From an uncultured Gammaproteobacteria bacterium (GTDB taxonomy: Bacteria > Pseudomonadota > Gammaproteobacteria > GCA-002705445 > GCA-002716945), in NCBI GenBank assembly GCA_902521725.1, contig CABYTF010000002.1, positions 1 through 56,170 on the forward strand: DNA of 56,170 nucleotides, in the 5' to 3' direction. The position numbers were made by a program, and so were the translations under genes. The first letter of the stretch is position 1; each line of letters starts with the position of its first letter. Positions 3,155 to 51,760 of the stretch are shown here, one piece after another. The notes below the pieces were generated by a model that was given only the letters and a program-made list of their open reading frames with translations, made no database searches and was not told the DNA's origin.

Positions 3155-3919
3155 ATGACTGAACAATTAAAACTTTCAATCAAAAATCTTAACGTCTTCT
3201 ATGGCGATAAACAGGCTTTATACAATATAAATCTTAATATTATGGAAAAAGAAGTTACATCGCTAATTGGTCCATCTGGATGTGGAAAATCTACATTACT
3301 TAAATGTATTAATAGAATGAACGACCTAGTTGAAATATGTAAAACTGATGGTCAAGTGTTATTGGATTCTAAAGACATTAATGATGCATCACAAGATCCA
3401 GTTCTTTTGAGAATGAAAGTGGGAATGGTATTTCAAAAACCTAATCCTTTTCCAAAATCAATATATGATAATGTAGCTTTTGGACCAACGTTGCATGGAA
3501 TGACCAATTCAAAGGAGGAGCTTGATCATGTAGTGATAGAAAGTCTAAGTAAATCAGGATTGTATGATGAGGTAAAAGATCGGTTGTTTGATCCAGGCAC
3601 CGGTTTATCTGGAGGCCAACAACAAAGACTTTGTATTGCAAGAGCTCTCGCAGTTAATCCTGAGATTCTCTTGATGGATGAGCCATGCTCTGCTTTGGAT
3701 CCAATCGCGACTGCAAAGATTGAGGATTTGATTGCTGAGCTTAAAGAGCAATACACAATCGTAATTGTTACTCACTCTATGCAACAAGCAGCTAGAGTAT
3801 CTGATAGAACGGCTTACATGCATATGGGAGAACTGATTGAGTCAGGATTAACCAAGACAATTTTCTCTAATCCACAGCACCAGAAAACTCAAGACTATAT
3901 TACGGGAAGGATCGGATAA
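3155..3919 (+). CDS. pstB: Phosphate ABC transporter ATP-binding protein PstB
   Basis: ATPase that powers phosphate import, 254 aa, the normal family length. Walker A (GPSGCGKST, residues 39-47), the ABC signature LSGGQQQR (151-158) and Walker B (ILLMDEP, 171-177) are all intact, and the Q-loop region [10 protein letters not shown] is typical of PstB. It acts on the cytoplasmic face of PstC/PstA. It lies 7 bp after pstA and 29 bp before phoU, in one operon. Confidence 0.97.
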
Positions 3920-16482: not shown

Positions 16483-18258
16483 TCAATAATCTAACGTATA
16501 TGTAACAAAGAGTGACCTATCTAGAGTATGATATCCGTGAGCTGTCCTGTAAGGTCTATCGAAGATATTCTTCATGCTTAAAGAGATTGTACCTGTATCA
16601 AGTCGTGTCCTATAGTTTACATTGGCTATATAATATGAGCCTAAATTTATATCTGCAAATGCTGACGCTTTTCTAGTACCTTCAGCTAAAATATTAAATC
16701 TTAGAGAACTATTTGGTTTAAAATTATAAATTACATCTGCATTCAGCTTATGTTTACTTCGTTTTGTTAAGGGTTGATTATTTTTTGTATCTTCTGGATT
16801 CATATATGTGTAACCAATATCATATATGAAAGGACGTATGTTTGATTGTACTCTCATTTCTAAACCCGTTATTAATGCATCAGATAGATATATCTGTGAA
16901 TTAATATCCGCCTCAATTAGGTTTTTCAATCTCGTTTTAAAAGCCGTTCCTCTGATAAATGTATTCTCATTTACATATCTTTTGACTCCAAATTCATAAG
17001 AAAACGACTCTTCAGGTTTATGTGTTGCATCACCAGATCCATCAGTCGCATAAAGGTCTGTTGCATCTGCTGGTCTATAGGATTTGGTAATATTAAATGA
17101 ATATACATTATTATCTGAAAGTAAAGATACTCCAAAGTTCCCAGAAGTAAAATGTCCAGCTTGTGAGTGATCTGTATGTCTTGCCCCGAAGTTCAATCGA
17201 TATGATGGGTATGACATTTCATTCTGGTAAAAATATTCTTTATTATTGTGTTGTGCAGTGAATCGACTTTCATAGGCTGTTCCACCATATACAAGTTCAC
17301 TCATATGCTCTTTTGTATAAATAAGTCCAATTTTTTGTACAACATTACTCCCTACATTCGTGTAGGAAAGATCATAAATATCCCTGAGAGTATCGGTGAA
17401 GTCGCTTGAACCTACTTTTTTTTGGATAATCCTATTTTGAGAACCTATAATTTTTATTTCAAAAATGTCTTCATTAATAAATTTCTTAAGGTCAAAGTTG
17501 TAAAAGTAATCATCATGATCCTGATTCTCATTAGTGCCAAAGCTGTCATATTGCGTATTACCATTCGAGTTGTATAGCTTAGTAGAAAAAACATAATCAT
17601 TTATCTCCTTGCTCAAACCGATACTTATGTTGTCTGTATTATATGCATGCCTTTTATTAGAATAACGACCCGCAGTCTTAGATTTCGATTCTTTTCTGTT
17701 AGCATTAATATTCATCTTGAATCCATTTAGACTATAATTTTGACTCAACGATGTAGTATTGGTCGACCATGATCCAGTCGATATTTTTATTGAATTTGAA
17801 TTCTCTTTAGTCTTTATGTTGATAATACCACCAATAGTTCTAGCTCCATGAAGCGATGATGATGACCCTTTTATAATTTCTATCCTGTCAATGGAGTCAA
17901 TTGAAATGTTTTGTATTGGTGCTAGAGCAAGTGTGCCTGGATTCAGCTCAACCCCATCAAGTATAATCTTTGTATGATTGCTCTCAGTACCTCTTGTAAA
18001 AATAGATGTTAATTGTCCAATTCCTCCGTTAGAGGTTATATTTATAGAGCTTATAGAGCTCAATAATTCTTGCATATCAGCGAAGCCTCTCATTTCTATA
18101 TCTGAACTAGTGAATACTTCCATAGATGCAGGCGAAGTATGGATATCTATTGGTGAGATTGAATTGCCTACTACAATTGGGTTTAATGTTTCACTTGCCT
18201 GTGTGAGACTGAAAAATGTAAATAAAGCGTTCAATAATATAATTTTTCTAAAGTTCAT
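16483..18258 (-). CDS. btuB: TonB-dependent cobalamin receptor, BtuB-like
   Basis: Outer-membrane receptor of 591 aa. It has a signal peptide (about 1-21), a plug domain with an IVVGNSISPI TonB-box-like start and the SMEVFTSSDIEMRG and IIKGSSSSLHGARTIGGIINI plug segments, then a 22-strand barrel ending in YTLDY with a terminal aromatic residue. The length is close to E. coli BtuB (~614). The cobalamin riboswitch in its leader is the strongest evidence for the substrate; barrel sequence alone would not show it. A clear ribosome-binding site (gagga) precedes the ATG. It lies 15 bp upstream of the DUF6580 gene. Confidence 0.88.
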   Translation of the reverse strand: MNFRKIILLNALFTFFSLTQASETLNPIVVGNSISPIDIHTSPASMEVFTSSDIEMRGFADMQELLSSISSINITSNGGIGQLTSIFTRGTESNHTKIILDGVELNPGTLALAPIQNISIDSIDRIEIIKGSSSSLHGARTIGGIINIKTKENSNSIKISTGSWSTNTTSLSQNYSLNGFKMNINANRKESKSKTAGRYSNKRHAYNTDNISIGLSKEINDYVFSTKLYNSNGNTQYDSFGTNENQDHDDYFYNFDLKKFINEDIFEIKIIGSQNRIIQKKVGSSDFTDTLRDIYDLSYTNVGSNVVQKIGLIYTKEHMSELVYGGTAYESRFTAQHNNKEYFYQNEMSYPSYRLNFGARHTDHSQAGHFTSGNFGVSLLSDNNVYSFNITKSYRPADATDLYATDGSGDATHKPEESFSYEFGVKRYVNENTFIRGTAFKTRLKNLIEADINSQIYLSDALITGLEMRVQSNIRPFIYDIGYTYMNPEDTKNNQPLTKRSKHKLNADVIYNFKPNSSLRFNILAEGTRKASAFADINLGSYYIANVNYRTRLDTGTISLSMKNIFDRPYRTAHGYHTLDRSLFVTYTLDY

Positions 18259-18581: not shown

Positions 18582-19355
18582 TTAGTTTTTTACTCCAATA
18601 CCTCTATTTAAAAGGTATATAGCTAAAGAATACATGAAAAATATTAATATGAACATCATTACTATCGCATTAAATGTATTCATTTCTTCTATGCCAATAA
18701 ATGCATACCTAAATGCGCTTACCATATAAGCTATAGGATTAAACAACGATACTGTTTGCCAAGCTTCAGGAAGGTTATATATTGAATAAAAGGTTCCACC
18801 CAGATATGTAAGCGGAGTTAAAACAAATGTTGGAATAATATTTATATCATCAAAACTTTTTGCATAAACAGCATTAATAAATCCAAGGATGGAAAATAAA
18901 AAACTAACAAGAAGTGTTAGAAAAATAGCAAGATATACATTATGTATAGGTATACTTGTGAAACTTAGTGAGACTAGATATACCGCGAAGCCAACTACAA
19001 AAGCTCTTGATACACCACCCAATACATACCCGATTAAAATGACGTGACTTGAAAGTGGGGATACAAATAATTCCTCAACACTTTTTTGAAACCTACCACT
19101 ATAAAAAGAACCAACGACGTTCATGTATGAATTTGAAATGATAGGCATTATGATTAAACCTGGCAGTATGAATTGTATATAAGGCAACCCACTGATATCC
19201 CCCAAACGTGATCCAATGAAATTCCCAAAAATAGTTATGTATAAAAAAATTGTAATTACTGATGGTAAAATAGTCTGTATCCAAATACGTGACCATCGAA
19301 AGAATTCTTTTCTGAATATCGTTGTTAGTTGTGTTATGTATAGCTGTTTTATCAT
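18582..19355 (-). CDS. ABC-2 type transporter permease, YadH-like
   Basis: Inner-membrane half of an ABC exporter, 257 aa with six membrane segments. The ABC-2 family segment PLTYLGGTFYSIYNLPEAWQ lies near residue 185, followed by LFNPIAYMVSAFRYAF. It overlaps the ATPase gene by 4 bp. The pair matches YadH/YadG in length and layout. The cargo of that family is not established. Its stop is 2 bp from the riboswitch, so read-through into btuB is possible. Confidence 0.9.
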   Translation of the reverse strand: MIKQLYITQLTTIFRKEFFRWSRIWIQTILPSVITIFLYITIFGNFIGSRLGDISGLPYIQFILPGLIIMPIISNSYMNVVGSFYSGRFQKSVEELFVSPLSSHVILIGYVLGGVSRAFVVGFAVYLVSLSFTSIPIHNVYLAIFLTLLVSFLFSILGFINAVYAKSFDDINIIPTFVLTPLTYLGGTFYSIYNLPEAWQTVSLFNPIAYMVSAFRYAFIGIEEMNTFNAIVMMFILIFFMYSLAIYLLNRGIGVKN

Positions 19356-20263
19356 TCTTGAGTAAGCTCCATAAATAGTTCCTCTAGTTTATTTCGTTTA
19401 CTTAGTATTTCAATTACATTTATTTTGTTGTTATTAAATGAATTAATTATTTCCGAAATTGAAACTTTATTATCTACAGTCAATTCATATGAATTATTAT
19501 CTATACTTATAATGCTGTCACCGAATGCATTTATATCATTAATAGTTGAATCTGTTCGTATGATATAGGTATGCTTTCTCTTTGAAGCAATTATATCTTT
19601 CATTGGTGAATTTTGAACAATCTCTCCTTTATGAACAATTGATAAATTTTTACATAAACGCTCTGCCTCTTCTAGATAATGAGTTGTTAATATAATCGTG
19701 ACACCATCATTATTTATTTTTTTGAAAAAGTCCCACATTGTAAGTCTCAGTTCCGTATCAACTCCTGCAGTAGGCTCATCTAGAATTAGAAGTTTGGGAC
19801 TATGTATTAAAGCTCTGGCTATAAGAAGTCTTCTTTTCATTCCGCCAGACAATTCTCTCGGTGTACATTCTCTCTTATGCCATATACCAAGGTCTTCAAA
19901 AAGCTCTTGAGTTTTATTCATAGCTTGTTTTTTTGTTAAACCGAAATATCCACCAATATTAATCATTGTCTCTTGAATCGGAATAAACTGATTAAGATTA
20001 TACTCTTGTGGAACAACACCAATCATTTTTTTTGTTGCTTCAGGAAATTGACGAATGTCTTTTCCATATACTTTTACTGTACCGGATGTGATGTTGACAA
20101 GTGTTGTAATAATTCCGATAACTGTAGACTTACCAGCCCCATTTGGACCAAGGAATGCAAATAAATCTCCGTCCTCGACATTGAGATTTATGTCTTTTAG
20201 TGCCTTTACACCATTCCTATAAGTTTTATTAAGTTGTTGAATTTCTAGAGCATATTTGGTCAT
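19352..20263 (-). CDS. ABC transporter ATP-binding protein, YadG-like
   Basis: 303-aa ATPase partner of the ABC-2 permease. It shows Walker A (GPNGAGKST near residue 39), the signature LSGGMKRR (near 140) and Walker B (LLILDEPTAGVD near 160), then an H-loop TTHYLEEAERLC. The C-terminal ~80 residues are the accessory region found in this exporter subfamily. Divergent from the malyl-CoA lyase operon across a 112-bp gap. Confidence 0.92.
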   Translation of the reverse strand: MTKYALEIQQLNKTYRNGVKALKDINLNVEDGDLFAFLGPNGAGKSTVIGIITTLVNITSGTVKVYGKDIRQFPEATKKMIGVVPQEYNLNQFIPIQETMINIGGYFGLTKKQAMNKTQELFEDLGIWHKRECTPRELSGGMKRRLLIARALIHSPKLLILDEPTAGVDTELRLTMWDFFKKINNDGVTIILTTHYLEEAERLCKNLSIVHKGEIVQNSPMKDIIASKRKHTYIIRTDSTINDINAFGDSIISIDNNSYELTVDNKVSISEIINSFNNNKINVIEILSKRNKLEELFMELTQE

Positions 20264-41427: not shown

Positions 41428-42760
41428 CAGTATTTCTTTTTCTTTGTGTCGAGTTTGGTATATTTATTCTCTCTCTATATTTTGTGATTGTACGCCTCGC
41501 TACAGATACGCCTTTTGCTATAAAATATTTTGAAATCTCATTATCGCTCAAAGGCTTGTTTATATTTTCTTCTTTAATACAATCTTCGATCATTTTCATA
41601 ATTACTTTTGATGAAATCATTTTTCCAGTGTCGGTAAAAAGTTCGGAGGAGAAAAAATATTTTAATTCGTATACGCCTCTCGGAGTCTGGACAAACTTAT
41701 TACTTGTAGCCCTAGATACAGTTGATTCATGAATACCTAGGGAATCAGCAATATCCTTTAAAGTCATTGGTTTCATACCAATATCGCCATTGTTTAAGAA
41801 ATCTATTTGTCTTGTAAAAATTTCTTTACAGACACTTAGTATTGTTAAGCTTCTATTCTTTATAGATTTAATGATGAATTTCGCTTCATTATAGTTTTTA
41901 CGAAGATAATTTAAGTCGGTCTTTATCTTACTTTCTCTCATTAATGAAACATATTCTGAATTTAACTTTAATAGTGGTTTATTTTTGGTGAGTTCGGTTA
42001 TCCATTTACCATCTCTCTTGAAAATAATTATTTCAGGAGAGATGTGATAGGAGTCTAATTTTTTTGAAACCTCTAGACCAGGTTTAGGATTGAGCTTTTT
42101 AATAAGCTTGAGTGCATTCTGATCAAAATGAGTATTTTTATTTAGCTCTGAAAGAATATTATTGAATTTAGAGCTGTTGGAACTATCTATTTCTTTTAAA
42201 TATTGGATTATATCTGTTGCCTTTTCATACAAGGGTGATTCTCTATATGAGTTATCTAATTGTATGGATAATGTGTCACATAAATCTATTGCGCATGTTC
42301 CAATAGGATCAAATCTCTGAAGTGTATGTAATACATAAAATATTTCTTGAAAAGAGACTTCAATTTCTCTATTGGCTTGTATAAAGATATCCTTTAGATC
42401 TTCTGTTAAATACCCATTATCATTTACACAATCGATCAGTATAGAAGCAATTATTTTTTCATTTACTGAGAATGAAGACATCTCTACTTGTCGATTTAGA
42501 GACTCCTGTAAGCTCTCAGTCTTCTTATGGTACTTTAGAATATCATCTGCATCTGCATTAAACTCGTTGATTGTTGATCCTACGTCATAATTAGATTCGA
42601 TCTCGTCATCTTTTTCTAGTAGCGGATTTTCTAAAATTAAATTATCTAATTCTTTTTCTAAATCATAAACATTTAGCTGAAGAAGCCTAATAGCTTGTCT
42701 TGTTTGTTGAGATAAGACCTTTCTCTGTGTTAATGTGGTTGTCTGCTTTAATTTATTCAC
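41420..42760 (-). CDS. rpoN: RNA polymerase sigma-54 factor RpoN
   Basis: 446 aa. Region I at the N-terminus is Gln/Leu-rich (RQAIRLLQLNVYDLEKEL), followed by the core-binding region and the C-terminal RpoN box ARRTITKYRERINIP near residues 420-435, which reads the -24 element. Sigma-54 needs an AAA+ activator; none is encoded in this window. It overlaps lptB by 4 bp and ptsN by 8 bp. Confidence 0.96.
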   Translation of the reverse strand: MNKLKQTTTLTQRKVLSQQTRQAIRLLQLNVYDLEKELDNLILENPLLEKDDEIESNYDVGSTINEFNADADDILKYHKKTESLQESLNRQVEMSSFSVNEKIIASILIDCVNDNGYLTEDLKDIFIQANREIEVSFQEIFYVLHTLQRFDPIGTCAIDLCDTLSIQLDNSYRESPLYEKATDIIQYLKEIDSSNSSKFNNILSELNKNTHFDQNALKLIKKLNPKPGLEVSKKLDSYHISPEIIIFKRDGKWITELTKNKPLLKLNSEYVSLMRESKIKTDLNYLRKNYNEAKFIIKSIKNRSLTILSVCKEIFTRQIDFLNNGDIGMKPMTLKDIADSLGIHESTVSRATSNKFVQTPRGVYELKYFFSSELFTDTGKMISSKVIMKMIEDCIKEENINKPLSDNEISKYFIAKGVSVARRTITKYRERINIPNSTQRKRNTDD

Positions 42761-43482
42761 AATTTAAAAGATTCTCCTAAATAAACTTTTTTGACAATAT
42801 CATTTTTAACGAGATCTCTAGATTTCCCAGATGCTAGAACTTTACCCGAATTGATGACGTATGATTTATCGCATATTTTTAATGTCTCTCTGACGTTATG
42901 ATCAGTAATTAATATTCCTATATCCTCTTTTGCTAACACTTTGATAATTTTCTGTATATCAATCACAGATATTGGATCAATCCCAGCAAATGGCTCATCA
43001 AGTAAGAGAAATTTAGGTTTTAGAGCCAATGCTCGTGCGATTTCAACCCTTCTTCTCTCTCCTCCCGATAATTGTATACCTTTAGTATCAATAAATTTAC
43101 TTAAATCAAATTTGTCAATTAGGTGTTCAAGAATATCTGATTTTTGAGTTTTGCTGAGATTTTTATCAACCTCAAGAATTGCTTCAATATTATCTTTTGC
43201 TGTCATATCTCTGAATACAGAGGGCTCCTGCGGTAGATAGCTTATACCTTGCTCAAATCTTTTATGAATCGGATCATGAGTGATATTATGATCATTAACC
43301 AGGATGCTGCCTTCATCTACTTTTACTAAGCCAACTATCATATAGAAAGTTGTAGTTTTGCCAGCACCATTTGGACCTAAAAGACCCACGATCTCACCAG
43401 AATTAACTTCAAGTGAAATATTATGAATAACCGTTTTACTTTCAAAAGATTTTTTTAGACCAGCTGATATAAGAGTTGACAT
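42757..43482 (-). CDS. lptB: LPS export ABC transporter ATP-binding protein LptB
   Basis: 241-aa ATPase that drives LPS extraction from the inner membrane through LptFG. Walker A GPNGAGKTT (36-44), signature LSGGERRRVEIARAL (near 138) and Walker B FLLLDEPFAGIDP (near 160) are intact. The neighbours (the LptC/A-like gene, kdsC, rpoN) are the standard ones and separate it from the similar amino-acid transporter ATPases. Confidence 0.96.
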   Translation of the reverse strand: MSTLISAGLKKSFESKTVIHNISLEVNSGEIVGLLGPNGAGKTTTFYMIVGLVKVDEGSILVNDHNITHDPIHKRFEQGISYLPQEPSVFRDMTAKDNIEAILEVDKNLSKTQKSDILEHLIDKFDLSKFIDTKGIQLSGGERRRVEIARALALKPKFLLLDEPFAGIDPISVIDIQKIIKVLAKEDIGILITDHNVRETLKICDKSYVINSGKVLASGKSRDLVKNDIVKKVYLGESFKL

Positions 43483-43483
43483 A

Positions 43484-44152
43484 TTAATTTAAATCGAACG
43501 TCGTTGTTACTTTATCTCTTATACTTTTTTTTAGATTACTTGCAGGCTTCTTTTTAACTACCCACTCATCAGTTTTAGTATTATAAATCATCTGATTTCC
43601 CTTTATTTTTTGTAACTGATCACCCTCTTTGATAGTGCGCTCTGCATCACTCAATATAGTAATTAAACCTGTATCAAGATTTGCAGATAACCCACTGCCT
43701 GTCGTAGTTGAATCAGATGTTATTATTGTTACATCTCTATCTGTTTCAATAAGGTCCTTTGATAAATAGAATATAGCATATGAAGTATACAATTTGATGT
43801 TATTTGCATTAGAAGAATCATTTCTATTTACTAGTACATTGTTTTTTAGATAAATCTCACTCATTTCACCAGTAGGATCAACAGCTGTATCAGAGCTTAT
43901 GTTAGTTATTAGGTTGGAATTAAACATTTTTAACTTTGGATTTTTTATAAAGGTATAGTTATCATCATACTTCTCTAAATATAATCCCAATAAACTCCAT
44001 TTAGTTGACATATCAATATCTATATTTTTTGATGAGAAGTTGTGTATCTTATTTTTCAATTTTCTCTGTTCTGTTGATTCACTCGCTAGCACATTTAAAT
44101 GTAGAACTAACAATAAAAGGGAAAAATAAGGAATAAAATTAGACTTTTTCAT
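43484..44152 (-). CDS. LptC/LptA-like periplasmic LPS transport protein (single gene in place of two)
   Basis: 222 aa with an N-terminal hydrophobic segment (about 8-24, ending LNVLASE) that looks like a cleavable signal peptide. Residues about 45-180 resemble LptC: beta-strand pattern, then TSYAIFYLSKDLIETDRDVTI and GSGLSANLDTG. The last ~40 residues (KIKGNQMIYNTKTDEW) resemble the end of LptA/OstA repeats. E. coli has separate lptC (191 aa) and lptA (185 aa) here, between kdsC and lptB; this window has only this one. It overlaps kdsC by 14 bp. The domain split is inferred by eye. Confidence 0.72.
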   Translation of the reverse strand: MKKSNFIPYFSLLLLVLHLNVLASESTEQRKLKNKIHNFSSKNIDIDMSTKWSLLGLYLEKYDDNYTFIKNPKLKMFNSNLITNISSDTAVDPTGEMSEIYLKNNVLVNRNDSSNANNIKLYTSYAIFYLSKDLIETDRDVTIITSDSTTTGSGLSANLDTGLITILSDAERTIKEGDQLQKIKGNQMIYNTKTDEWVVKKKPASNLKKSIRDKVTTTFDLN

Positions 44153-45644: not shown

Positions 45645-46580
45645 TTATCCAAATATAAAATATATATATACGAAGTATGTTATTACTAATACGCTTGAGT
45701 ATAAAGTTTTTATGAGACTTTTGTCAGATTTAATTATCATATAGAAAAAAGTAGATACAGTGAGTAAAACTAAAATGTCTCTGATAAATTCTGTTTCGTT
45801 TACAATAGTCGAATTAATAAGCCCAGCCGCACTTACTGCAATTGCTATATTGAAAATATTTGAACCTATTATGTTACCTATAATGAAGTCTGTTCTGTCT
45901 TTTCTTGCAGACTGAATACTAGTAGCAAGCTCAGGCAGACTAGTTCCTAATGCAGTGAGCGTTAATCCAATTGTATAGCTACTTATCCCAAATAGAATTG
46001 CTATTTGAGTTGCTCCATCAATAAAATAATCTGATCCATAAATCAACATCAAAACCCCAACTATAAATAGAAGACTAATTTTTAGTGAACTATAACTTTC
46101 AGAATTCTCCTCAAAATAAGGATCCACTTTTTTTTCTTCACTTCTTAAGAAATATAATATAACTAAAAATACTAGAAATAAGATTATTGAATCAATAGCA
46201 TCGAATGAATAATCAGAAAAAATAAGTGCAAACAGACATAACGTTAAGACAACCATACCAGCATACATATTTGTAGGCAAAGTCATTACTTTATCTTTTT
46301 GTTTAATAAAAAAAACAGACAAACAGAAAACCAAGGCAATATTAGATATATTTGAACCAATCGAATTACCTACAGCAAGGATAGTGTCATTTTGAAGTGC
46401 AGACTTAATGGATATCGATATCTCAGGGGCAGAGGTTGCGATCCCAATCATAAAAAAACTAGCAGTAAATCCAGAAATTGAGTATGAAGACGAGAATTGT
46501 TCGGTCGATGTGACAAGAAGATTAGATCCTAGCAATAAAAGTGCTAATCCAAGGACTAAAATTGTTATAGATTCCATCAT
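45645..46580 (-). CDS. yrbG: Calcium/sodium antiporter, CaCA family (YrbG-like)
   Basis: 311-aa inner-membrane exchanger with ten predicted helices in two inverted halves. The alpha repeats are GIATSAPEISISIKSAL-QNDTILAVGNSIGSNI (near 47-80) and LGTSLPELATSIQS-RKDRTDFIIGNIIGSNIFN (near 215-250), with the ion-binding Glu and Asn residues in place. The exact ions are not established for YrbG. It starts the kds-lpt-rpoN run. Confidence 0.92.
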   Translation of the reverse strand: MMESITILVLGLALLLLGSNLLVTSTEQFSSSYSISGFTASFFMIGIATSAPEISISIKSALQNDTILAVGNSIGSNISNIALVFCLSVFFIKQKDKVMTLPTNMYAGMVVLTLCLFALIFSDYSFDAIDSIILFLVFLVILYFLRSEEKKVDPYFEENSESYSSLKISLLFIVGVLMLIYGSDYFIDGATQIAILFGISSYTIGLTLTALGTSLPELATSIQSARKDRTDFIIGNIIGSNIFNIAIAVSAAGLINSTIVNETEFIRDILVLLTVSTFFYMIIKSDKSLIKTLYSSVLVITYFVYIYFIFG

Positions 46581-46613: not shown

Positions 46614-47372
46614 TTAATAATTGATTTCAAGAACGTCAATTTCAAAGTCTTGCACGTCTTTACCATCAGTGACGAGTTTTGCTCTTCTCTGTAGATATGA
46701 TTCTCTTAGAAAAATGTATTTATCTTTAGCTGCTGTATCTAGAATTTTTGTGGCTTTAAGAAGATTCGCCCTAGTGTCGATTACGTTGGTAGCTTGAATA
46801 GCTTGTCTCTCCTCGTGATGTAACTCTGTATGAATAGGAGAAATATCTTTTTCTATCATGACATCAACATAGAAGCTAGGAGCATCTCTAAAAGAGCTTG
46901 GTCCAAAAAATGGTAATACTAGATATGGTCCGGGCGAGATTCCATAAAATCCTAATGTTTGACCGAAATCCTCACGATGTCTTTGTATACCGAGAGAGGT
47001 TGCCACATCAAATAAGCCTAAAATCCCAACAGATGAATTAATAACAAATCTACTAGTTGATGATATGGTTTTATCTAGTTTCATTTGTAGTGCGCTGTTT
47101 ACAATTGTATTAATTTCTCCAAGATTGTTAAAAAAATTACTTACACTATTCTCAACAGGATCAGGTGTAATAAACCTATAACCTTCAGCTACTGGTTCTA
47201 AAATGGTATCGTCTACCACCTCATTGAAGCCAAAAATAACTCTATTCATAGGCTCTAGCGGATCGTCTTCTGATGCATTCGTAAAGCTCATACTCAATAA
47301 TATTACTACAGTGACTAAAATAGCTTGCAGGATTATTGAATATATAGAAAAATTTGATTTACCCTGTAACAT
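46614..47372 (-). CDS. mlaA: Outer-membrane lipid-asymmetry protein MlaA (VacJ)
   Basis: Outer-membrane partner that removes misplaced phospholipids from the outer leaflet. 252 aa, with a hydrophobic signal (about 12-32) but no lipobox cysteine that I can see, although many MlaA proteins are lipoproteins. The family core is clear: DPLEPMNRVIFGFNE, INTIVNSALQMK, RFVINSSVGILGLFDVA, REDFGQTLGFYGISPGPYLVLPFFGPSS and RD. It is divergent from mlaC with only 21 bp between the starts, and 33 bp upstream of yrbG. Confidence 0.94.
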   Translation of the reverse strand: MLQGKSNFSIYSIILQAILVTVVILLSMSFTNASEDDPLEPMNRVIFGFNEVVDDTILEPVAEGYRFITPDPVENSVSNFFNNLGEINTIVNSALQMKLDKTISSTSRFVINSSVGILGLFDVATSLGIQRHREDFGQTLGFYGISPGPYLVLPFFGPSSFRDAPSFYVDVMIEKDISPIHTELHHEERQAIQATNVIDTRANLLKATKILDTAAKDKYIFLRESYLQRRAKLVTDGKDVQDFEIDVLEINY

Positions 47373-47393
47373 AATCTCTGATTATATACTAAA

Positions 47394-47984
47394 ATGAAGT
47401 CCATGATTAAAAAAACATCACTTTTGCTGGCATTATTATTGACTACAAACATTGCGTTTACAAGTGAAACGCCTGATGGTTTTTTGAAAGACTCTGTCGA
47501 AGAGATCACTGTTCTAGTCAGCAAATATAAAGATAGATTTGAGACTGATGAGGAATTTCTTAGAGATAAAATGAATTCTACAGTGATGCCAAAACTTGAT
47601 ATTAAACTTATGTCAAAAATTATTCTGGGTAAAAATATATGGACAAACTTATCAACAACCCAAAAAGATGACTTCGTTGAAGCATTTAAATACAGGATGA
47701 CTAGTACATATATGAAATCTATCACAGCATTTGATGGAGAAAAGGTGGTCTTCTTGCCCTATGAGCCAGGTAAAAGAGAAAATATCGCATACGTAAAATC
47801 AAAATATTTGATTCCTGGAGGTGACATTGCTGTTGATTATAGATTGATTAAAAAATCAGATGAATGGAAAGTCTATGATATTATTTTTGATGGTATAAGT
47901 CTGATGAAAAATTACAGAGCAGATTTCCGTGAACATGTATCTGAAAGCGGTATTGACTCATTAATAACCTCGCTAAGGGAATAG
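47394..47984 (+). CDS. mlaC: Periplasmic phospholipid-binding protein MlaC (Ttg2D/HpnM family)
   Basis: 196-aa secreted shuttle that carries lipids across the periplasm. Signal peptide about 1-23 (cleavage after AFTSE or near it). The core shows MPKLDIKLMSKIILGKNIW, LSTTQKDDFVEAFKYRM and VDYRLIKKSDEWKVYDIIFDGISLMKNYR. The start may also be the ATG at 47403. Divergent from mlaA and convergent with the RND gene (9-bp gap). The mlaF, mlaE, mlaD and mlaB genes that usually flank it are not here. Confidence 0.93.
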   Translation: MKSMIKKTSLLLALLLTTNIAFTSETPDGFLKDSVEEITVLVSKYKDRFETDEEFLRDKMNSTVMPKLDIKLMSKIILGKNIWTNLSTTQKDDFVEAFKYRMTSTYMKSITAFDGEKVVFLPYEPGKRENIAYVKSKYLIPGGDIAVDYRLIKKSDEWKVYDIIFDGISLMKNYRADFREHVSESGIDSLITSLRE

Positions 47985-47993
47985 CAAGTTTCT

Positions 47994-50447
47994 TTAAAGT
48001 GGTTTCATAGAAATTAGTAATCTCGGAAGCAACGTTAGCACAAGTATTAATGCTACAAGCATCGCGAACCCTGTTAAAGTACCAAATATTATTGTTGGTA
48101 TGAAATTTGATAGGATCAGAATAGAGAACCCAAATATGACTGTAATTCCTGTAAAGAATATGGCTCTTCCAATGCTTGAATGACAGATTTTTACAGTGTC
48201 TTCATAAGTTTCAACACTCTGAAATTCCTCCTTAAATCGATATATATAGTGAATGCTATTATCTACCGCAATTCCAACCGTAATTGCAGCGATCGTAATT
48301 GTCATCATATCCAGTGGTAAATTTATAATGCCCATTATCCCGAGCACTAGAAGCGCAGATAGAAGATTTGGAATTATACCAATAATCATTAGTTTGAAAG
48401 ATCTGAATAATATTAAAAACATTGATGCGATAATTAGCATCACGAAACCGAGAGATTTTATTTGAGAATCAAACAGGCTTTGAAGCATATTGTTGTAAAG
48501 TAAAAGTATTCCAGTGATCGTTATAACTTCTGATTTAAGGTAAGCGTCATTATTAAGATCAGTTTTAATCTTCTCAATAAGATCCGCTCGCCTCAGATTT
48601 TGGTTTGAATCAAGTATTCTAACGTTGATTCTTGCTTCATTATCTTTTATAGACAGGTATGGATTGACTGCAATATCTTTTACTTCCGGGGGGAGTTGTC
48701 TGTAAAGAAGGGACATCTCTAGACTGTTAAGTTCTTTGTCATCATTGACAATTTCAGCGACTCGTATCGATGACGCGAGGGATAATACTTTGCCTATATA
48801 CTCATTATTATTTAAATAATCATGTACGTACTTAATCTTATTAATTTTTTCAGTTGTAAACCAATTTGAGTCATTAGACTCCTCAGCATCTCCTAATAAT
48901 TCATCAAACTCCTCATCATAATCATCACTTTGGGAGTCAGGAAATTTTATAATAATATCCATTGGTGTAGTCCCACCCAGTTGATTATCAATGAGCTTCA
49001 TGCCTTTGTGTATTTCAGTATCTGCTCTGAAATAATTTATAAAGCTGTTCTCAACTTTAAGTTGAGTTAAGCCATATAGAGTGATGACCGATATCACCGC
49101 AACAATAGTATAAATATGTTTTCCAAACTTAAGTGCTACATTTGATAATGAGTTAACAATGTAACTTTTTGTTTGTTCATTGCTAACAATAGAATTATCT
49201 TTATTTGAGAAAACTAGTATAAAACAGGGCAACAACGTGAATGATGTTAGAAATAACGATGTAAGACCTATGACCATCATATAGCCAAAATCTATAACAG
49301 GTTTGATGTCACTAAATACCAGTGATGCAAAGGCCACTATAGTTGTAAGTGCTGTATACAAGCATGGCCATATCATTTTCTTTGTTGTTTGATGGATCGA
49401 ATAAAACTTATTACCATCTCCCGAAGAGAAAATCTGTCTATACCTAACAATTATGTGAATGTTCATGGATAAGGTAAGGATTAACATTAGTGAGATAAAA
49501 TTAGACGATATAACTGTTACTTTCCAGTCCAGATACCCAAGTAATCCAATCATGAACAATACTGCATATAGGCAATTAACTATCGGTGCTGCAACCCATA
49601 TGAATTTTCTAAAGATTATAATTAAAGTAACAAGAATGAATAGTAGAACCCCAAATCCAAAGTTAATAAGATCATTTTTTATGAAAGTTATCATATCGTC
49701 AGTGATCATAGGTATTCCGCCTAATCTTATTTCATATCTATCATTAGAATAAGAGCTTTGAACTTTTCTTATTTCTTCAATTAGAAGCTTTATTCTTTGT
49801 TTTTCTTTCTCTGCTAAATTTTGGTATTTGGTTTTTGCCAGTAAATATTGATTTTCAACACTTTCATTTTCTTTATATTTTTCAAAAAGTAAATTCCTTT
49901 GCTTTAGAGCACTTAATAAGTTTTCATTTTTTTTGATTACGAGCTGCATAGCAGTAGTTTTAGCATCAGAACTGATGACCAGATCTTTATAGATGGGACT
50001 CGTAAGTATTTCCTCTTTAGCAAGATTTCTATCTATGTCATCACTTAGAATATTTGGGATATCATTTATTAATTCAGTAAGCGGCTTTTTCGAACTTGTA
50101 ACTAAAGGTATATTTGTTATTGATGTAACTGAATCTATATTCTCAAACGTTTTTATTTCTTGCGATAGAGTATCTATCAATCGAAGGGTGTCAGAAGAAA
50201 AAATACTTTCTTTTTTATCCGTAACAGTCAAGATCATAAAATCTGACGACTGATATCTTTCACTAACATTACGAAAAATTTTCAAATCTTTATCATCTTC
50301 AAGAATAAGTGTGTCTGCGGATGCATCCAATGTAAAATTCTTAATATGAGTTGCGGATATTGTGAGAATAATGGCTAAAAAAAATAGCACTAAAACTGGA
50401 TGACTAAGTAAGAATTGCTTATAAATAAATGATATTTTTTTAATCAT
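47994..50447 (-). CDS. RND-superfamily lipid transporter candidate (MMPL/HpnN-like)
   Basis: 817-aa inner-membrane protein with the RND layout: one N-terminal helix (about 13-33), a ~200-residue periplasmic domain, five helices (about 255-415), a helix near 440, a second large periplasmic domain and five C-terminal helices. The second half has the VGIAVDNSIHYIYRFKEE motif with the Asp thought to carry protons. The matching place in the first half (LTLSMNIHIIVRYRQ) lacks the Asp, as in COG1033-type proteins. Relatives include HpnN, which moves hopanoids. Placed between mlaC and murA, where E. coli has mlaFED, it may do the Mla pump's work. Cargo is inferred. Confidence 0.85.
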   Translation of the reverse strand: MIKKISFIYKQFLLSHPVLVLFFLAIILTISATHIKNFTLDASADTLILEDDKDLKIFRNVSERYQSSDFMILTVTDKKESIFSSDTLRLIDTLSQEIKTFENIDSVTSITNIPLVTSSKKPLTELINDIPNILSDDIDRNLAKEEILTSPIYKDLVISSDAKTTAMQLVIKKNENLLSALKQRNLLFEKYKENESVENQYLLAKTKYQNLAEKEKQRIKLLIEEIRKVQSSYSNDRYEIRLGGIPMITDDMITFIKNDLINFGFGVLLFILVTLIIIFRKFIWVAAPIVNCLYAVLFMIGLLGYLDWKVTVISSNFISLMLILTLSMNIHIIVRYRQIFSSGDGNKFYSIHQTTKKMIWPCLYTALTTIVAFASLVFSDIKPVIDFGYMMVIGLTSLFLTSFTLLPCFILVFSNKDNSIVSNEQTKSYIVNSLSNVALKFGKHIYTIVAVISVITLYGLTQLKVENSFINYFRADTEIHKGMKLIDNQLGGTTPMDIIIKFPDSQSDDYDEEFDELLGDAEESNDSNWFTTEKINKIKYVHDYLNNNEYIGKVLSLASSIRVAEIVNDDKELNSLEMSLLYRQLPPEVKDIAVNPYLSIKDNEARINVRILDSNQNLRRADLIEKIKTDLNNDAYLKSEVITITGILLLYNNMLQSLFDSQIKSLGFVMLIIASMFLILFRSFKLMIIGIIPNLLSALLVLGIMGIINLPLDMMTITIAAITVGIAVDNSIHYIYRFKEEFQSVETYEDTVKICHSSIGRAIFFTGITVIFGFSILILSNFIPTIIFGTLTGFAMLVALILVLTLLPRLLISMKPL

Positions 50448-50500: not shown

Positions 50501-51760
50501 ATGGATAAATTATTAATAGATGGGCAACAATCATTGTCAGGTTCAGTCAGGATCTCCGGGGCAAAAAATTCTGTTTTGCCTATGTTATGTGCCTCAGTAA
50601 TGGTATCTGATGGTCAAGTAGAGCTTGAAAACGTTCCTCATCTTCAAGATGTAACTACTACAACTAGACTACTAACTCAAATGGGCATCAGCGTCACTAT
50701 GGATGAATTTATGGATATTAGTTTGGATCCATCAACTATTCATAATCTATATGCGCCTTATGATCTTGTTAAAACAATGCGATCCTCAATTCTCGTCCTG
50801 GGCCCATTGTTGGCTAAGTATGGCGAGGCAAAAGTTTCTCTACCTGGTGGATGTGCGATTGGAATGAGACCAGTCGACATGCACTTAGATGCCCTCAAAA
50901 AAATGGGAGCAAGTATCTCTGTTGAAAATGGTTACATATCAGCCAAGGTGAAAAAATTAAAAGGTGCTGAGATTATTTTTCCACGTAAGTCTGTAACCGG
51001 CACTGAAAACATTATTATGGCTGCAACTCTGGCAAAAGGTACAACCACAATTAAAAATGCTGCAAGTGAACCTGAGATCTCAGATTTATGTCTCTTCCTT
51101 AATAAAATGGGCGCTAAAGTCAGTGGCTTTGGTACTGATAGAGTCACAATTAATGGGGTGAATTCTCTTAAGGGGACCAAGCATAAACCACTACCTGACA
51201 GGATTGAAGCAGGAACATTTATGGTAGCGGCAGCTATAACACAAGGCGACATCGAAATAAACAATATTGTCCCAGAGCACTGCCGTGCTGTAATAGATAA
51301 ACTAATCCAATCAGGAGCTGACATAAAAATCCTCAAAGATTCTGTTAGGGTAAAAATGAAAAAGCGACCAAGGGCAATAAATATTGAGACCAACGCATAT
51401 CCTTTTTTTCCCACAGATATGCAAGCTCAAATGACTGCATTAAATTGTATTGCAGATGGTGATAGCTCTGTGAAAGAAAATATTTTTGAAAATAGATTCA
51501 TGCACGCACAAGAACTGATAAGAATGGGAGCAAAGATAAGAGTTCATGACAACATTGCAGAAATATCTGGTAGAGAAGAGTTGCTCGGTGCTCCTGTAAT
51601 GGCTACCGATCTGAGGGCTTCTGCGAGTTTAATTTTAGCTGGTCTTGCTGCAAAAGGAACTACCGAGATTGGTCGGGTTTATCATATCGATAGAGGATAT
51701 GACTGTATTGAAGAAAAACTTCAGTTAATTGGTGCTAGGATTTCAAGAAAACCTATGTAA
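50501..51760 (+). CDS. murA: UDP-N-acetylglucosamine 1-carboxyvinyltransferase MurA
   Basis: First committed step of peptidoglycan synthesis, 419 aa. The fosfomycin-binding Cys118 is present in LPGGCAIGMRPVD, and the N-terminal ISGAKNSVLPMLCAS (with the catalytic Lys) and C-terminal DLRASASLILAGLAA are standard. The small ibaG gene usually just upstream is missing; the RND gene lies there on the other strand, 53 bp away. It starts the murA-hisG-aro-hisD run. Confidence 0.97.
   Translation: MDKLLIDGQQSLSGSVRISGAKNSVLPMLCASVMVSDGQVELENVPHLQDVTTTTRLLTQMGISVTMDEFMDISLDPSTIHNLYAPYDLVKTMRSSILVLGPLLAKYGEAKVSLPGGCAIGMRPVDMHLDALKKMGASISVENGYISAKVKKLKGAEIIFPRKSVTGTENIIMAATLAKGTTTIKNAASEPEISDLCLFLNKMGAKVSGFGTDRVTINGVNSLKGTKHKPLPDRIEAGTFMVAAAITQGDIEINNIVPEHCRAVIDKLIQSGADIKILKDSVRVKMKKRPRAINIETNAYPFFPTDMQAQMTALNCIADGDSSVKENIFENRFMHAQELIRMGAKIRVHDNIAEISGREELLGAPVMATDLRASASLILAGLAAKGTTEIGRVYHIDRGYDCIEEKLQLIGARISRKPM

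Follow-up and report, generated by a model that had tools for sequence, protein, structure and literature searches.

In a 56,170-nucleotide stretch of DNA from an uncultured marine gammaproteobacterium (contig CABYTF010000002.1 of assembly GCA_902521725.1; hereafter the window), the interval between murA and yrbG-kdsD-kdsC holds mlaA, mlaC and a gene for an RND/MMPL inner-membrane protein. The features of this locus, and of its flanks, are as follows.

46614..47372, minus strand: mlaA, outer-membrane lipid channel protein of 252 aa (PF04333, E=8.8e-74)
46617..46682, minus strand: C-terminal tail of MlaA, AKLVTDGKDVQDFEIDVLEINY, corresponding to the E. coli tail that docks in the MlaC cleft
47394..47984, plus strand: mlaC, periplasmic phospholipid carrier of 196 aa (PF05494, E=4.9e-41)
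47994..50447, minus strand: RND/MMPL inner-membrane protein of 817 aa, the proposed partner of MlaC (PF03176, E=4e-32, in two stretches)
48864..48941, minus strand: acidic periplasmic loop of the RND protein, residues 503-528, PDSQSDDYDEEFDELLGDAEESNDSN, a candidate MlaC-docking motif
45645..46580, minus strand: yrbG-like Na+/Ca2+ exchanger, conserved flank (PF01699)
50501..51760, plus strand: murA, conserved flank in synteny with E. coli (PF00275)
43484..44152, minus strand: lptC, conserved flank along with kdsC and kdsD (TIGR04409, over cut-off)

The Pfam matches confirm the coordinates and identities that a first-pass annotation of the window had assigned to the mlaA, mlaC and RND genes, and its claim of synteny was correct: by genome comparison the equivalent interval in E. 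coli K-12 reads murA-ibaG-mlaBCDEF-yrbG-kdsD-kdsC-lptC, with mlaA at another place in that chromosome. The window resembles the E. coli Mla pathway in having members of the MlaA and MlaC families (PF04333, PF05494) at this syntenic locus; it differs in that the inner-membrane ABC complex (MlaF, MlaE, MlaD) is missing and the RND/MMPL protein stands in its place. The strands alternate across the trio: mlaC converges with the RND gene and points away from mlaA. The three genes thus make up a conserved cluster, but no operon. The same order and orientation (murA and mlaC on one strand; the RND gene, mlaA and yrbG on the other) are kept in the family neighbourhoods examined. In a profile scan the MlaC protein fell under the NCBIfam equivalog cut-offs of both MlaC and HpnM.

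The absence of the ABC complex is not confined to the locus. Whole-genome profile searches of the window's own assembly (G000; 970,813 bases in 11 contigs, 92.2% complete) returned zero matches to PF02470, the MCE domain of MlaD, and zero to PF02405, which identifies MlaE, so the search for mlaD and mlaE beyond the locus that the first-pass annotation had suggested found neither gene. Inside the interval there is no gene for an ABC ATPase (MlaF) or for a STAS protein (MlaB); a stray MlaF elsewhere, which would be a generic ATPase, was not searched for. The ABC genes that the window does contain were considered as a concealed MlaFE and rejected, as those at 18582-20263 form an ABC-2 type pair, that at 3155-3919 is a lone ABC ATPase and there was no match to MlaE. 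The MCE domain was found in none of the 25 genomes of the window's family, G009 (99% complete, 3 contigs) and G010 (100%, 6 contigs) included. The RND gene was present in 22 of these 25; it was missing from G006 (69% complete) and from G013 and G017 (86-87%), the last two being also without mlaA and mlaC.

The RND protein has two MMPL repeats (PF03176) and an RND fold, which places it in the MMPL/HAE3-type RND superfamily. Its AlphaFold model is a confident RND fold (mean pLDDT 86, pTM 0.82), for which the top Foldseek ranks were taken by MmpL4, MmpL5, MmpL3, NPC1-like proteins and HpnN, with Patched among the fold matches. Because VIA-align Z scores of 41-45 extend to many RND proteins, multidrug pumps among them, the fold alone cannot name the cargo. 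By sequence, the closest solved structures are HpnN and MmpL3 (E 1e-13 to 3e-18), and profile scores set the family sharply apart, its members reaching at least 560 bits and other RND proteins at most 254. Relatives with 44-51% identity were found in many genomes of SAR11, in marine Alphaproteobacteria outside that group, in several Gammaproteobacteria, in Nitrospirota and Deltaproteobacteria, and in a metagenome-assembled genome labelled Planctomycetes; in the RND tree the window's family and SAR11 lie near one another inside one well-supported clade. On its profile scores the protein is a distinct family, separate from HpnN. Membership of HpnN is ruled out by scores far from the HpnN cut-offs (110 vs 752 bits for TIGR03480; 80 vs 1100 for NF052374) and by the lack of a squalene-hopene cyclase (PF13243) in the window's assembly; of 29 genomes tested for the cyclase, 27 likewise gave no match. 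Hopanoids are the cargo of HpnN, possibly with the participation of HpnM (PMC12583986), and this pair had been offered in the first-pass annotation as a model for the trio. It serves as an analogy only: both sets combine an MlaC-family carrier with a transporter of the same RND superfamily, but here the HpnN scores are low, the cyclase is missing, MlaA belongs to the set and the RND protein has an acidic loop of its own. The lipid and siderophore exporters MmpL3/4/5 share the fold (TM-score 0.65-0.71; VIA Z 41-44 over ~680-690 residues for MmpL4 and MmpL5), but at ~14% identity, and the window's protein has no mycolate or siderophore context, is accompanied by a soluble MlaC carrier and lacks the acid of transmembrane segment 4 (TM4). 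As a separate observation, a strong squalene-hopene cyclase match is present (C18:27532-28476) in the streamlined 1.1-Mb genome G453 of locus L057, from a marine alphaproteobacterium that is of the RND-only type.

Linkage of the RND gene to mlaC and mlaA recurs in distant lineages. Beyond the window's family, the RND gene adjoins mlaC in eight proteobacterial loci (L058, L062, L070, L071, L072, L076, L101 and L116). All three genes stand together in Nitrospirota, in the order mlaA-mlaC-RND; a deltaproteobacterium has RND-mlaC followed by mlaA on the opposite strand, and the genome labelled Planctomycetes has mlaC-RND-mlaA (L114). The Pfam check of these linkage loci covered a subset. In SAR11, mlaA adjoins mlaC. 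Two other arrangements were seen. One RND subclade (L036 and L144-L147; f34 genomes plus one copy each in G049 and G239) directly adjoins a second mlaA and is without the acidic loop; four of its five genomes here (f34) also carry MCE, and it is possibly a separate MlaA-RND system. At L160 (G098) an mlaFEDC operon lies ~1.5 kb away from the RND gene, which is on the opposite strand.

The first-pass annotation had also looked to related genomes for RND proteins accompanied by MlaA and MlaC in the absence of MlaFED, and our survey found this combination, scored by the absence of MCE, in many lineages. The outgroup sample of the class comprised one genome per family, and 24 of its genomes possess both MlaA and MlaC; among these the RND protein occurs in 4/4 without MCE (G026, G027, G049 and G055) and in 1/20 with it (Fisher p=0.0005). 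Two of the four are near-complete (G049, 100%; G026, 99%). Genomes without MCE are rare in the phylum at large: the domain is present in 387 of 398 genomes sampled from the Pseudomonadota (97%) and missing from 11. Among the 42 RND-positive genomes reached by locus, 12 have MCE and 30 do not, and 24 of the latter 30 hold both MlaA and MlaC. The 19 SAR11 genomes tested all lack MCE, and 14 of them possess MlaA and MlaC. The MCE-less, RND-positive condition is seen in larger genomes too, including the closed chromosome G463 of a gammaproteobacterium (5.7 Mb) and genomes of a Nitrospirota (3.6 Mb) and a deltaproteobacterium (4.1 Mb), and the RND gene tree requires at least 10 changes of MCE state. 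Three genomes (G454, G458 and G471) own both systems, with one mlaC beside the RND gene and another beside mlaD, and the MlaC tree puts the two kinds of mlaC in different clades, with modest support in parts. A third arrangement, unexplained, was met in the alphaproteobacterial-looking genome G400, where mlaA and mlaC are adjacent at L166 (7650-9139).

Newly recognised in this analysis is an acidic loop of the RND protein, which is similar to the tail of MlaA from the same genome. The loop is inserted in the second periplasmic domain of all 118 main-clade relatives, with a median length of 27 aa and a net charge of -10; the same position is occupied by 5-11 aa in outgroup RND proteins and by 6-7 aa in the MlaA-adjacent subclade. 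It contains the sole part of the AlphaFold model with pLDDT below 50, has a short predicted helix at 512-517 and is probably disordered. In E. coli, one cleft of MlaC receives both the acidic tail of MlaA and the MlaD beta6-beta7 loop (PMC10245069, PMC11289387); binding by the MlaA tail has been measured there with biolayer interferometry (PMC10245069). Pairs of MlaA tail and RND loop from single genomes include DPFASDDD with DPFASDCD (G191), ELDFFDEDS with EFDFFYSEDS (G055) and, in SAR11, DDSDWEEIDN with DDDWGDED (G472); the window's own pair is QDFEIDVL with EEFDEL. Although the test was conceived after the sequences had been seen and single pairs are weak, the summed similarity of loop and tail within genomes exceeds that of re-paired genomes (permutation p=1e-4 with 27 pairs and 0.0025 with 17, each clade giving one), and letter-shuffled loops matched the observed similarity in 0 of 500 trials. 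Since re-paired genomes and shuffled loops both score lower, shared composition is not the whole cause of the likeness. The RND loop is a possible MlaC-docking motif.

The MlaA of the window's genus has no lipobox cysteine, its N-terminus (MLQGK...MSFTNAS-EDDPLEP) being free of Cys. The residue is also missing from the SAR11 MlaA sequences seen, and several sister genera possess one (...SSCSTT...). An MlaA without this cysteine may be soluble or cleaved by signal peptidase I.

We consider it likely that MlaA, MlaC and the RND/MMPL protein form an inter-membrane lipid-trafficking line that does the job of MlaFEDB. Gene content, the conserved neighbourhood, the genome-wide absence of MCE and MlaE, the recurrent linkage and the co-occurrence are all observed; from them we infer that lipid passes between MlaA and the RND protein by way of MlaC. 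In such a line MlaA would sit in the outer membrane, MlaC would act as the periplasmic shuttle and the RND/MMPL protein would be a dedicated transporter in the inner membrane, its acidic loop recruiting MlaC by mimicking both the tail of MlaA and the acidic MlaD loop between beta6 and beta7; MlaC would then bind the RND loop and the MlaA tail alternately. The cargo would most likely be a glycerophospholipid. E. coli MlaA takes up lipid from the outer leaflet, and NPC1, a structural relative of the RND protein, gets sterol from a soluble carrier; for these reasons retrograde flow, from the outer to the inner membrane, seems somewhat more likely than anterograde flow, a preference that we hold weakly. 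We also lean, by a little, towards the wider proposition that the RND protein with its MlaA-tail-like loop is a second widespread link between MlaC and the inner membrane, and that SAR11 and other lineages have lost all MCE proteins and rely on MlaA, MlaC and the RND protein alone.

Several observations weigh against this reading. In the Pseudomonadota sample, 18 of the 20 RND-positive genomes also have MCE, so the job of MlaFEDB need not be that of the RND protein. The RND gene of SAR11 lies apart from mlaA-mlaC, near dnaB, cvpA and purF (neighbour names read from the sequence), and in five incomplete SAR11 genomes the RND gene occurs without MlaA or MlaC. The 1.2-Mb genome G400 retains mlaA-mlaC but lacks both MCE and the RND protein. 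The docking motif has its own difficulties: the window's loop and tail match weakly (score 18), the Nitrospirota and deltaproteobacterial loci combine an acidic RND loop with an MlaA that has no acidic tail, and the MlaC interface residues, compared at the E. coli positions Y72, L76, Y82, I130, R134, R147, R153, N179 and R186, showed no clear difference between RND-only and ABC systems, the alignment being too divergent there. Finally, the TM4 acid (residue 328), which is D or E in four outgroup MMPL proteins, is M, L, I or V in all 118 relatives.

This last point bears on energy coupling. Acids in both TM4 and TM10, forming a proton relay, are common in the MMPL/HAE3-type superfamily without strictly defining it, and the window's protein does not have both. 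Asp729 in TM10 is kept in 117 of the 118 relatives (with one gap) and His331 in TM4 is kept in all of them. Because the TM4 acid has been replaced throughout the family, proton coupling is no safe assumption; of the two membrane acids found in typical MMPL proteins only that of TM10 is kept, and the proton-driven shuttle of the first-pass annotation is possible. The idea that the RND protein replaces MlaFED also needs qualification. It is upheld by the absence of MCE and MlaE from the window's genome and by the many MCE-less RND lineages, but as so many RND-positive genomes also carry MCE, we propose on the gene distribution that the RND protein serves MlaC as an alternative partner in the inner membrane, not always as a replacement, and is the sole survivor in some lineages.

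That coexistence, together with the presence of one MlaC per system in three genomes, would suit an RND family with a job of its own, such as exporting a special lipid (a glycolipid, carotenoid or other non-phospholipid) through MlaC in the anterograde direction, as HpnN probably does for hopanoids, with retrograde phospholipid clearance absent altogether; the nearest annotated lipid exporters are indeed HpnN and MmpL. We regard this as unlikely, given the missed HpnN cut-offs, the general lack of the cyclase and the absence of any conserved lipid-synthesis neighbour (the flanks are murA and yrbG, or dnaB/cvpA/purF), and given that streamlined genomes retain MlaA with MlaC and the RND protein, MlaA being a protein that serves outer-leaflet phospholipid in E. 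coli. It is improbable that MlaA and MlaC act alone, by passive or diffusive exchange or via AsmA-like proteins, with the RND protein an unrelated efflux pump nearby: G400 and the separate RND gene of SAR11 would fit, but linkage to mlaC or mlaA arose in several phyla with differing gene orders, and the co-occurrence (p=0.0005) and the resemblance of loop and tail also speak against it. The chance is negligible that MlaFED is missing only through gaps in metagenome-assembled genomes, for although the window's own genome is 92% complete, incomplete assembly is ruled out as the cause by the 99-100% complete family genomes lacking MCE, which is also missing from G049, G026 and the closed 5.7-Mb chromosome and present in 97% of the phylum sample.

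The trafficking line formed by MlaA, MlaC and the RND protein has a counterpart of sorts in other reduced or altered Mla systems. The MlaEFD-only trans-envelope system of Veillonella (PMC10665443) is likewise a reduced variant and is the mirror image of the present one, having kept MlaEFD without MlaA and MlaC where the RND-only genomes keep MlaA and MlaC without MlaEFD. Pseudomonas aeruginosa MlaZ/MlaY also pairs a second MlaA-family protein with a partner other than MlaFEDB, but MlaY is a lipase and not an RND transporter. In Campylobacter jejuni, MlaA and MlaC (Cj1371, Cj1372) are encoded away from MlaEFD (PMC6549495). The gene that follows them may be RND-like. We found no earlier description of the MlaA-MlaC-RND set in the open-access full-text literature, a scope that leaves subscription journals and bioRxiv mostly outside. 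A phylogenomic survey that recorded MlaEFD without MlaA and MlaC supposed an unknown alternative retrograde transporter in lipopolysaccharide-bearing phyla without Mla (PMC10665443), and the RND protein is a concrete candidate for that role in lineages keeping MlaA and MlaC. If our reading is correct, an RND protein can stand in for ABC-driven lipid clearance, and MlaC is a modular carrier, able to engage different inner-membrane partners by means of a short acidic motif. SAR11 would then use the RND version, and the most abundant bacteria of the ocean would maintain their outer membrane in a manner unlike the textbook case. The RND-only genomes split the MlaA-MlaC half of the pathway from MlaFEDB, and the disputed direction of Mla transport becomes testable in a new setting.

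Two further observations concern the rest of the window. The lptB gene directly follows lptC (42757-44152) with no intervening lptA, unlike the arrangement in E. coli. At 16483-18258 there is a gene for a 591-aa protein whose sole recognised domain is a TonB-dependent receptor plug.

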